In this document: positions 17,600 through 20,319 of the stretch, in pieces
Layout of the letters: every line of letters starts with the position of its first letter
Numbering within the stretch: the stretch's first letter is position 1
NCBI RefSeq assembly: GCF_003119195.2
Contig: NZ_CP022254.1
Span: forward strand, 355,501 to 419,500
Origin: Azospirillum baldaniorum
GTDB lineage: Bacteria > Pseudomonadota > Alphaproteobacteria > Azospirillales > Azospirillaceae
Reading direction: 5' to 3'
Length of the DNA: 64,000 nucleotides
Made by a program: the position numbers and the translations under genes
The notes under the pieces: generated by a model
The model's input: only the letters and a program-made list of their open reading frames with translations
Told to the model about the DNA's origin: nothing
Databases searched by the model: none

Positions 17600-18838
17600 A
17601 TGGCGTCCGTGTCAGCCTCTTTGAACCTCCCGATGCTCGACAATACCGTATCTGCGGACTCCCGTCAGGACCTGCCCGGCGACGCCACCATCCTGCTCCG
17701 TCAGGCCCAGCCGGCGGACATCCCCGCTCTGCTGGCCATCGAGGAGCGGTGTTTCGCCACCGACCGCCTGACCCGACGTAGTTTTCAATATTTGCTCACG
17801 AAAGCCAAGGCCACTGGACTTGTGGAAGTCCACAGCGGCGCGGTCGTCGGCTACGCGCTGGTGTCCTTCCATTCCGGCACGTCGCTCGCCCGGCTCTACT
17901 CCTTCGCCGTCGATTCCGGCCACCGCGGCCAGGGCGTCGCCAAGCGGCTGCTGGCCGCGGCGGAGCAGGCGGCCCGCTCGCGGGACTGCATCTACCTGCG
18001 GCTGGAGGTGCGGCGCGACAACGCCGCCGCGATCGACCTCTACAAGAAGGCCGGCTACCGCGAGTTCGGCGTCTACACCGACTATTATGAAGACCATATG
18101 GAGGCGCTGCGGCTGGAGAAGCGCCTCGGCCACAGCGGCCCCAGCGCGCCGCTGGGCGGGCCTCTGGTCCCCTACTACCAGCAGACCCTGGACTTCACCT
18201 GCGGCCCGTCGGCGCTGATGATGGCGATGAAGGCGCTGAAGCCCACGGAGATCGAGCTGGGGCGGAAGCTGGAGATCCGGTTGTGGCGGGAATCGACGAC
18301 CGTCTTCATGACCTCCGGCCATGGCGGCTGCGGCCCCTTCGGGCTGGCGCTGGCGGCGGCGCGGCGCGGCTTCGCCGTGGACATCCACATCAAGGACAAC
18401 GCCACACCCTTCCTGGACAGCGTGCGCAGCGACGAGAAGAAGGAGGTCATGCGCATCGTGCACGAGGACTTCCTCGACGAGCTGGAGGGCAGCGGCGCCA
18501 CCGTCCGCCACAACACCCTGAGCGCCCAGGACATGGCCGACGCGGTGGCGGGCGGGGCCATCCCCATCGTGCTCATCAGCTCCTACCGGATCTATCACGA
18601 AAAATTTCCGCATTGGGTCGTCGTGACCGGTGCCGACGACCGCTTTCTCTATGTTCATGATCCGCTTGTGTACGATCGTCACCACGCTCACATCGACCGG
18701 ATGAACATGCCGATCCCGAAAGCCGACTTCGAGCGCATGGCCCGCTACGGCAAGGCCCAGTTGAAGGCCGCCCTTCTCCTCCGCCCCCAGTCCTCTGATC
18801 GGGCTGCCGATGGGGTTGCTGATGGGTCCGCCGACTGA
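17600..18838 (+). CDS. Bifunctional GNAT acetyltransferase / C39-like peptidase (DUF3335-type)
   Basis: A 412-residue fusion. Residues about 30-175 are a GNAT acetyltransferase of RimI type (IPALLAIEERCF, then SGHRGQGVAKRLLAAAE and RRDNAAAIDLYKKAGY). Residues about 185-400 are a papain-like C39-type domain, with catalytic cysteine C201 in LDFTCGPSALMMA, histidine H338 in FPHWVVVTG and aspartate D354 in YVHDPL. All three catalytic positions are intact. ATG 17600 follows GGAGGGAG. The stop overlaps the start of the RimK-like ligase by one base (TGATG), so the two are made together. Such peptidase/acetyltransferase/ligase sets suggest peptide or amino-group modification. The substrate is unknown. 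Confidence 0.9.
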   Translation: MASVSASLNLPMLDNTVSADSRQDLPGDATILLRQAQPADIPALLAIEERCFATDRLTRRSFQYLLTKAKATGLVEVHSGAVVGYALVSFHSGTSLARLYSFAVDSGHRGQGVAKRLLAAAEQAARSRDCIYLRLEVRRDNAAAIDLYKKAGYREFGVYTDYYEDHMEALRLEKRLGHSGPSAPLGGPLVPYYQQTLDFTCGPSALMMAMKALKPTEIELGRKLEIRLWRESTTVFMTSGHGGCGPFGLALAAARRGFAVDIHIKDNATPFLDSVRSDEKKEVMRIVHEDFLDELEGSGATVRHNTLSAQDMADAVAGGAIPIVLISSYRIYHEKFPHWVVVTGADDRFLYVHDPLVYDRHHAHIDRMNMPIPKADFERMARYGKAQLKAALLLRPQSSDRAADGVADGSAD

Positions 18839-20319
18839 TGCCCGCGCATCTTCTGGTCGTCGACCGCCGGGCGGACGTGAAATGGGCGAAGGACGGGCTG
18901 CCGGTGATCAGCGCCCGCGACTACATCGCCCACCCGGAGCAGGCGCCGCGCGGCGCGCGGGTGCTGAACCTGTCGCGCAGCTACCGCTATCTGGGCACCG
19001 GCTACTACGTCTCGCTGCTGGCGGAGGCGCGCGGCGAGCGGGTGATCCCCTCCGTCCGGACCATCCTGGACCTGTCGCAGAAGACCTTCTACCGCGCCCA
19101 GCTGGCCGAGGTGGAGGAGGCGCTGCGCAAGGCGATCAAGCGGATGGACCAGCCGCCGGAAGCGTCCTTCAACCTCACCCTCTTCTTCGGCCACGCCGAC
19201 GACGCCCGGTTCCAGGACATCGCCCGGACGATCTTCGACCTGTTTCGCTGTCCCCTGCTGAAGGTTCAGGTGCGGCTGAAGGAGGGCTGGACCATCCACG
19301 CCCTGGAGCCGCTGTCGCTGGCCGACCTTCGGCCCGACCAGGAGGCGCTGTTCCAGGCGGCGCTCGATGCCTACACCCGGACTTCCTGGCGCGAGCCCGC
19401 GGCCAAGGCGCCGCCGCGCTACACGCTGGCCATCCTGCACAACCCGAAGGAGGAGCTTCCTCCCTCCAGCCCGCGCGCGCTCCAGAAATTCGTCAAGGCC
19501 GGGGAAAGCCTGGGCATCGCTGTCGAGCTGATCGAGAAGAAGGACTATGCCCGCCTCGCCGAGTTCGACGCGCTGTTCATCCGCGAAACGACGAATCTCG
19601 ACCACCACACCTACCGCTTCGCCAAGAAGGCGGCGACGGAAGGCATGCCGGTGATCGACGATCCGAACTCGATCCTGAAATGCACCAACAAGGTCTATCT
19701 GGCCGAGCTGCTGCGCGCCAACCGCATCCCGGCGCCGAAGACGGTGATCTTCGACAAGCGCGGGCTGGCGACGCTGGACCAGGAGATCCCCTACCCCATC
19801 GTCCTCAAGATTCCGGACGGCTCCTTTTCCCGCGGCGTCCTCAAGGTGCAGACCCGCAGCGAGCTGGACGCGACGGCGGAAAGCCTGTTCGAGCAGTCCG
19901 ACGTGATCCTGGCCCAGGAGTTCATGTACACGGAGTTCGACTGGCGCGTCGGCGTGCTGAACCGGCAGCCGATCTATGTCTGCCAGTATCTGATGGCGAA
20001 GAAGCACTGGCAGATCGTCAAGCACGGCGGCAACGGCCGCGCCGAGCAGGGCTCCGCACGCACGATGGCCGTCGAGGAGGCGCCGCGCGAGGTCATCGAG
20101 ACCGCCGTGAAGGCGGCGGGATTGATCGGCGACGGGCTCTACGGCGTGGACGTGAAGCAGAACGAGCGCGGCGTCTTTGTCATCGAGATCAACGACAACC
20201 CCAGCATCGACCTCGGCGTCGAGGACGCCAAGCTGAAGGACGGTCTGTACCGCCTCATCATGGGCGAATTCCTGCGCCGCCTGGAATCGCGGCCGCGCAA
20301 GCCCGGCTCTGGACCCTGA
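18838..20319 (+). CDS. RimK-family ATP-grasp ligase with N-terminal extension
   Basis: A 493-residue ATP-grasp protein. The first ~200 residues are a RimK-like family extension (VVDRRADVKWAKDGLPVI, NLSRSYRYLGTGYYVSLLAEARG). The C-terminal ~290 residues hold the pre-ATP-grasp and ATP-grasp domains: DALFIRETTNLDHHTYRFA, DDPNSILKCTNKVYLAELL, PIVLKIPDGSFSRGV and the Mg-binding VFVIEINDNPSIDLGVED. RimK itself adds glutamates to ribosomal protein S6, and relatives make peptide bonds on small molecules or peptides. Its partner is the coupled GNAT/C39 protein. I regard the pair as one uncharacterised modification system. Confidence 0.9.
   Translation: MPAHLLVVDRRADVKWAKDGLPVISARDYIAHPEQAPRGARVLNLSRSYRYLGTGYYVSLLAEARGERVIPSVRTILDLSQKTFYRAQLAEVEEALRKAIKRMDQPPEASFNLTLFFGHADDARFQDIARTIFDLFRCPLLKVQVRLKEGWTIHALEPLSLADLRPDQEALFQAALDAYTRTSWREPAAKAPPRYTLAILHNPKEELPPSSPRALQKFVKAGESLGIAVELIEKKDYARLAEFDALFIRETTNLDHHTYRFAKKAATEGMPVIDDPNSILKCTNKVYLAELLRANRIPAPKTVIFDKRGLATLDQEIPYPIVLKIPDGSFSRGVLKVQTRSELDATAESLFEQSDVILAQEFMYTEFDWRVGVLNRQPIYVCQYLMAKKHWQIVKHGGNGRAEQGSARTMAVEEAPREVIETAVKAAGLIGDGLYGVDVKQNERGVFVIEINDNPSIDLGVEDAKLKDGLYRLIMGEFLRRLESRPRKPGSGP

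Follow-up and report, generated by a model that had tools for sequence, protein, structure and literature searches.

We describe here a pair of adjoining genes in a stretch of 64,000 nucleotides from Azospirillum baldaniorum (contig NZ_CP022254.1, positions 355,501 to 419,500), which we call the window and number from its first letter. The window is part of one contig in a 7-contig, 7.68 Mb assembly, and in the named collections A. brasilense and A. argentinense come closest to it, with proteins 96-99% identical. Gene 1 encodes a GNAT-type acetyltransferase fused to a predicted papain-type domain of the C39-like family DUF3335, and gene 2 encodes an ATP-grasp ligase that begins with an RLAN domain. 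Across homologous loci, the core of this unit consists of GNAT and ligase, and the C39-like domain is not a constant partner. The features of the pair are as follows.

17600..18838, + strand: gene 1, GNAT-DUF3335 fusion protein of 412 residues (open reading frame list, Pfam, homologues)
17684..18127, + strand: GNAT domain, residues about 29-176, RimI/Ard1-like N-alpha-acetyltransferase type (Pfam, NCBIfam, structure, alignment)
18167..18781, + strand: DUF3335 domain, C39-like and of predicted papain type, residues 190-394, absent from part of the family (Pfam, homologous loci)
18200..18202, + strand: codon of C201, the predicted nucleophile (sequence, alignment)
18611..18613, + strand: codon of H338 (sequence, alignment)
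18659..18661, + strand: codon of D354 (sequence, alignment)
18836..18840, + strand: TGATG stop/start overlap, one shared base, the A (sequence)
18838..20319, + strand: gene 2, RLAN and ATP-grasp ligase of 493 residues (open reading frame list, Pfam)
18913..19359, + strand: RLAN domain, residues 26-174 (Pfam)
19420..20289, + strand: RimK/LysX/ArgX-like ligase core, residues about 195-484 (structure comparison)

An earlier reading of the window, made from the sequence only, had described gene 1 as an acetyltransferase joined to a C39-like domain with C201, H338 and D354 intact, and both Pfam and an alignment of 48 fusions agree with that description. Pfam places Acetyltransf_1 at residues 49-153 of protein 1 (E 1.1e-18) and PF11814, DUF3335 "Peptidase_C39 like family", at residues 190-394 (E 6.3e-84; 281 bits against a cut-off of 25). 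The GNAT residue E136 is invariant in all 48 aligned fusions, as are C201, H338 and Q195, the last of which had gone unmentioned; position 354 holds D in 45 of them and E in the other 3. The sequence-only reading had also let the next gene overlap by one base, and the two frames do share the A of TGATG. In protein 2, Pfam finds PF14401 RLAN at residues 26-174 (E 4.4e-47; 159.9 bits against a cut-off of 25) and a RimK ATP-grasp match at residues 284-458 (E 2.6e-8), and K285, K324, R370, D438, E450 and N452 are invariant in 56 of 56 aligned ligases. Because the active-site residues are conserved across the 48 fusions and 56 ligases, all three catalytic parts look active.

We examined the co-occurrence of the two families in 41 genomes of the genus, 398 of the phylum (Pseudomonadota) and 385 of the class, the phylum and class samples overlapping in part. 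DUF3335 was matched in 19 genomes of the genus (18 above cut-off) and RLAN in 20. Across the phylum, RLAN occurred in 72 genomes (about 18%) and DUF3335 in 58; both were present in 57, RLAN alone in 15, DUF3335 alone in 1 and neither in 325 (Fisher p about 1e-53, by a test that ignores shared ancestry). The sequence-only reading had named homologues that almost never co-occur as the outcome that would sink its proposal, and that outcome is not what the surveys show: besides the 57 genomes with both families, 55 of the 61 DUF3335 copies lie within 3 kb of RLAN, the other six being far off or on other contigs. These 55 adjacent pairs come in four layouts (29 in the order seen in the window, 18 divergent, 5 in reverse order and 3 convergent), which argues against mere inheritance of one operon. 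The class survey gave DUF3335 in 35 genomes, RLAN in 45 and both in 28, with 27 of 37 DUF3335 copies adjoining RLAN and one of the remaining ten scoring under the family cut-off. Pseudomonas is present among the named RLAN ligase loci. That DUF3335 and RLAN are coupled functionally and not by chance is strongly supported.

The functional coupling stands, but C39 is missing from many homologous loci. DUF3335 adjoins the ligase at 60 of 80 named ligase loci (fused to GNAT in one frame at 59, cut by the contig start at 1), a GNAT without DUF3335 is found at 15, and neither at 5, three of which are cut near a contig end; L126 and L139 are real exceptions. In the best 30 of the 61 phylum-survey DUF3335 copies, the GNAT is in the same frame in 29 and the remaining copy is cut by a contig end. 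Where RLAN has no DUF3335 nearby in that survey (L164-L183, of which L165 is the same locus as the named L108), a lone GNAT of the same subfamily is adjacent at 19 of 20 loci; in the twentieth genome, G233, a GNAT-DUF3335 gene lies elsewhere and not beside the ligase. The class survey holds 19 RLAN copies without an adjacent DUF3335, two of them already examined, and the other 17 served as a test of the GNAT rule. A lone GNAT was adjacent at 16 of these, the last being cut by a contig end, and 12 of the 16 are new sequence, with no sampled 100-base word in common with the named or phylum-survey neighbourhoods. Five loci from a plasmid collection were more mixed: GNAT-DUF3335 in two, a weaker, divergent GNAT (95 bits) in Aeromonas, and none in P. 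aeruginosa and Legionella. The P. aeruginosa plasmid copy (L220:5902-7491) has neither GNAT nor DUF3335 within 6 kb on either side of its RLAN ligase, on a plasmid stretch which we take to be chromosomal in character.

Lone GNAT genes usually stop 4-18 residues past the domain, once 52 residues past it, and the start of the ligase is often no more than a few dozen bases away. GNAT and RLAN ligase share one frame at only four of the examined loci, in genomes G401, G287, G397 and G779 (L201-L203 and L253), which belong to two family groups. In the first three, the GNAT is fused in front of the ligase and a second, convergent GNAT-DUF3335 gene is present; in G779, which bears the other family code, no DUF3335 occurs within the 8.4 kb examined. 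On a ligase tree of 92 sequences (115 loci less 23 near-identical rows; L125, L126, L139, L141, L145 and L183, which have no GNAT or C39 match, do not count for the label), C39 presence changes at least 13 times, and 13 changes are also forced by well-supported branches. Therefore, the chemistry probably does not depend on C39. The GNAT tree, built on 141 columns, has weak resolution: the C39-fusion label changes 9 times on it, and starred branches force just 3 of these changes. Both trees are quick LG+G4 trees made without bootstrap and have flagged long branches. C39 is a module that comes and goes, and the GNAT and RLAN ligase usually persist.

The GNAT domain of gene 1 differs clearly from the RimI of this genome in profile score. 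A profile built from the GNATs of the unit scores 213 bits on the window GNAT versus 55 on the tsaB-linked RimI of the same genome and at most 49 on its other tested GNATs, and lone GNATs next to RLAN ligases score 109-183 bits. Judged by these profile scores (members at least 109 bits, RimI 55), the GNATs of the unit are a subfamily apart from tsaB-linked RimI. The separate RimI-like gene (L212) adjoins a tsaB-like frame, recognised by eye, and the scanned neighbours of the window GNAT are other genes. The NCBIfam RimI model TIGR01575 (cut-off 86.4) gives 84.4 bits on protein 1 and 87.5 on the stop-to-stop frame. Compared with the PDB, the modelled domain best matches enzymes of the Ard1/RimI/Naa10 type (overall Z 20-22; Ard1 Z 22.4, RimI Z 21.7). 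Its similarity to arsinothricin and streptothricin acetyltransferase models is weak and far under their cut-offs.

The ligase had been said to carry a 200-residue extension absent from plain RimK, and its RimK/LysX-like core does begin only at about residue 195. Over 265-273 residues, the modelled core matches LysX (3vpd, Z 28.3), RimK (7qys, Z 28.1) and ArgX (Z 27.9). It nevertheless falls under the cut-off of every NCBIfam model that it matches, RimK and LysX included: 80.9 bits against 143.4 for the RimK family (TIGR00768), 27.4 against 331 for the S6 ligase (NF007764), and 82.5 against 275.6 for LysX (TIGR02144), the best-scoring model. With these scores and an RLAN domain present, the protein does not appear to be the ordinary RimK that would have undone the earlier proposal. 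The structure matches concern almost only the GNAT (model residues 29-183) and the ligase core (192-487); by sequence, the C39 domain alone drew one weak and irrelevant match from the PDB.

A neighbourhood survey for a conserved third gene had been suggested as a check, and it found none across lineages. Clustering of the genes up to three places from the unit, over 110 loci (rough gene caller, open reading frames of at least 80 residues), gave no additional cluster of more than 12 loci. The biggest clusters belong to particular lineages, the phosphorylase and sigma-factor genes found in relatives of Azospirillum being examples. Close same-strand neighbours numbered 96, at 54 of the 110 loci, and Pfam assigned thirty proteins, mostly such neighbours, to unrelated families (CorA, metallo-beta-lactamase, DctP, asparagine-synthase-like, Obg, sigma-54 activator and more). 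As to the linked precursor peptide of RiPP or graspetide clusters, no further family of genes of at least 80 residues recurs across lineages near the unit in these loci, a search that did not extend to shorter peptides. In Legionella adelaidensis (L221:41-3232), the RLAN ligase is followed, with overlapping ends, by a glutamate-cysteine-ligase-family gene and an N-formylglutamate amidohydrolase gene, and neither GNAT nor DUF3335 was found on this 9 kb record. We considered these neighbours as general partners and rejected them, as tblastn found them at no other neighbourhood locus searched.

Some single lineages have suggestive surroundings. At L107:5252-11477, GNAT and RLAN ligase genes precede members of three families (peptidyl-arginine/agmatine deiminase, deoxyhypusine synthase, arginine decarboxylase), a hint, in this single lineage, of a connection to polyamines. 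GNAT-only units at L109, L110, L111 and L113 are followed by asparagine-synthase-like genes (scanned at L111:9531-11063 and L113:9530-17468); L113 has two of these, then a NAD-glutamate dehydrogenase gene.

We also examined 12 loci at which DUF3335 stands without a detected GNAT or RLAN (L191-L193 and L224-L232; G696, below cut-off, was left out). A peptide importer (SBP_bac_5 and/or oligo_HPY) precedes or adjoins DUF3335 at three: S. meliloti AK83, Microvirga and G237. In the first two, DUF3335 directly follows a peptide ABC importer (L224:1529-7621 and L225:1608-7651, respectively), and in Microvirga the C-P lyase genes PhnI and PhnJ lie downstream, an arrangement that suggests uptake and cutting of phosphonate-containing peptides. 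In G237 (L192:2989-13250), the importer lies between two DUF3335 genes some 10 kb from each other, one of which directly follows an AstE/AspA-type deacylase gene. The importer cases suggest that DUF3335 may act in the cytosol as a hydrolase of short peptides, which are perhaps N-acylated. DUF3335 occupies the same place at L191, L227, L228 and L230, which come from four genomes of a single genus: it adjoins a dehydrogenase gene, and its flanking genes, to judge by eye from the starts of their proteins, look like those for E2 and E3 of 2-oxoglutarate dehydrogenase. The remaining loci without an importer are varied in place. One 665-residue frame in genome G594 (L232:6326-8323) has two tandem DUF3335 copies.

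In the window itself, a Pfam scan of seven neighbouring proteins found aspartate-semialdehyde dehydrogenase, a divergent carbohydrate phosphorylase, a small sigma factor and a PhoD-like phosphatase, two of the seven being frames without a Pfam match. The only transporter among the seven is of the EamA family (24109-25020, opposite strand), 3.8 kb downstream of the gene pair. The statement that no export gene lies nearby therefore stands for the genes that adjoin the pair, not for the wider neighbourhood. Just 3' of the pair, at 20808-21840, is a small sigma-factor gene resembling the PhyR sigma domain, followed by a frame without a Pfam match; the sigma-factor gene recurs at ten Azospirillum/Skermanella-type loci. 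A plain listing of short open reading frames in 20310-20820, which was not a search for precursor peptides, contained nothing obvious. An Rfam scan of 16500-22200 returned zero families at the gathering threshold, and promoter and terminator matches were not above chance level. A phage origin of the gene 1 fusion was also considered and dropped, the fusion having no match in a phage collection.

We tentatively favour, without calling it probable, the reading that the unit is a self-contained small-molecule cassette whose product is an N-acylated peptide or amide, C39 being an amide hydrolase added to the cassette. The core would be the RimI-like GNAT and the RLAN-type ATP-grasp amidoligase. 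The GNAT would acylate an amino acid or a short peptide at its alpha-amine; the ligase would use ATP to activate a carboxylate and would couple this to an amine, giving an N-acylated di- or oligopeptide or an amino-acid conjugate. The C39-like domain, when present, would be a papain-type amide hydrolase that trims or recycles the product or its precursor. Observed are the two genes with their domains and conserved catalytic residues, the conserved pairing, the nearly constant GNAT, a C39 that may be absent, and fusions of GNAT and ligase; what the enzymes do, in which order they act, that their substrate is a small molecule and that C39 hydrolyses are things we infer. We lean this way because the GNAT and ligase are near-constant and in places fused, no substrate gene recurs, and the NAGGN system offers an architectural precedent; the pairing of DUF3335 with RLAN, the stand-alone DUF3335 genes beside peptide importers (3 of 12 loci) and the two amidohydrolase- and ligase-family genes after the Legionella adelaidensis ligase were counted for it as well. 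Several observations weigh against this reading. The GNAT best resembles protein N-terminal acetyltransferases (Ard1, RimI), which favours a protein or longer peptide, and the ligase core resembles LysX/ArgX and RimK (Z 27-28), enzymes acting on proteins. The ligase is not significantly similar to the separately carried NAGGN synthetase of its own genome (E 0.34). Ligase loci without a neighbouring GNAT exist: L126 and L139 of the 80 named, G233, the P. aeruginosa plasmid copy and the Legionella record. Nine of the 12 stand-alone DUF3335 loci, mostly judged by eye, have no peptide importer; the importer cases are chance finds at three loci without a background rate; and two of these stand-alone DUF3335 proteins bear an unassigned N-terminal stretch, perhaps a diverged GNAT.

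The main rival, that the unit modifies a protein, we regard as possible but doubtful. It draws on the closest structures, RimK and LysX/ArgX, which act on proteins, together with Ard1/RimI/Naa10; RLAN could bind a protein, the lack of a linked precursor gene is expected if the target is a housekeeping protein, and passages in PMC12239564 give a precedent in the ligase/protease pair RimK/RimB. However, the cut-offs for the RimK family and the S6 ligase are not reached, the genome has a separate tsaB-linked RimI, and with at least 13 gains or losses of C39 on the ligase tree a C39 eraser would be dispensable. The patchy occurrence within the genus (RLAN in 20 of 41 genomes) also suits a dispensable pathway over a universal target. 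No analysis here separates the small-molecule and protein-modification readings decisively. That same patchiness would fit a role in detoxification or assimilation, in which the targets of acylation and amidation by the unit would be toxic or imported amino acids or peptides (antibiotic-like or phosphonate peptides), and C39 would open the peptide. The stand-alone DUF3335 genes by peptide importers, PhnI and PhnJ downstream in Microvirga, and the weak similarity of the GNAT to arsinothricin and streptothricin acetyltransferases point that way, but those two scores are far under cut-offs and no importer or resistance gene recurs across lineages beside the paired unit, so that we consider this improbable. 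Phytochelatin synthase is a papain-like transpeptidase, and C39 could by a similar acyl transfer extend what the ligase starts instead of hydrolysing it. The conserved Q-C-H-D/E set and the placement of the family among papain-like enzymes in passages of PMC10318531 are compatible with such a role; units without C39, otherwise alike, are common, however, and we give this version very little credence.

Should the small-molecule cassette be the right reading, its product might belong to an undescribed class of N-acylated peptide metabolites (an osmolyte, signal or storage compound) made by RLAN and GNAT enzymes, with C39 as a built-in off-switch repeatedly kept or discarded, a suggestion that we regard as possible but doubtful. 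Given the near-constant GNAT, the dispensable C39 and the GNAT-ligase fusions, the earlier, vague guess at "peptide modification" becomes a two-enzyme reaction that could be rebuilt in vitro, and natural variants with and without C39, the GNAT-only unit L100 of the Ferrovibrio type among them, are available for probing the role of the peptidase. RLAN ligases are present in 72 of the 398 Pseudomonadota genomes, yet we found no defined function for them in the open-licence literature. The same was said beforehand of the whole combination, and we found no experimental function for the unit by title or abstract in that literature. Iyer et al. 2009 reportedly discuss such domain associations.

Finally, we compared the unit with known systems. 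Passages in PMC8070244 describe Ngg as a GNAT enzyme that acetylates glutamine and forms a peptide bond, is encoded with asparagine synthase and a peptidase, and makes NAGGN. The likeness lies in an acetyltransferase and peptide-bond formation within one unit, a peptidase gene alongside, and the occurrence of GNAT-ligase fusions in both systems. Unlike Ngg, the window GNAT and ligase are in separate genes and not one polypeptide, the ligase carries RLAN, and no asparagine synthase is found among the seven scanned window neighbours. We rejected membership of the NAGGN pathway: the pair scores only 32.3 bits with TIGR03103, on the GNAT part alone (cut-off 569), the genome encodes a separate NAGGN synthetase that scores 887.6 bits with this model, and the BLASTP match between the window ligase and that Ngg is not significant. 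By architectural analogy, then, the cassette appears to be built like the NAGGN osmolyte synthetase, yet it is not a member of it. RimK with RimB, a published ligase/protease pair according to passages in PMC12239564, shares the ligase core fold (Z 28.1 to 7qys) and the combination of a ligase with a peptidase; the unit differs in its RLAN extension, sub-cut-off RimK scores, GNAT partner and a cysteine-type instead of an aspartic peptidase. LysX/ArgX, enzymes of LysW-linked lysine/arginine synthesis, supply the best structural match (3vpd) and the best-scoring NCBIfam model of the ligase, though the ligase scores far below the LysX cut-off. The window GNAT has the fold of RimI/Ard1/Naa10 (Z 20-22) and LEVR..N and YY stretches in alignment, whereas the GNATs of the unit form a separate subfamily by profile score. 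The predicted papain-type domain of gene 1, set beside PF11814 and Peptidase_C39_2, is a member of PF11814; unlike the C39 peptidases of bacteriocin-type ABC exporters, protein 1 has no transporter domain by Pfam, double-glycine leaders not having been searched for. The domain families are already catalogued and the GNAT-DUF3335 fusion is in print: passages in PMC10318531 state that fusion to GNAT-type domains is frequent among DUF3335 members, place the family among papain-like enzymes, and cite Iyer et al. 2009 on peptide ligation or acetylation as a possible role. Our additions are the absence of a cross-lineage third gene, a measure of the coupling, the finding that the GNAT is near-constant whereas C39 is optional, and the GNAT-ligase fusions in two groups.

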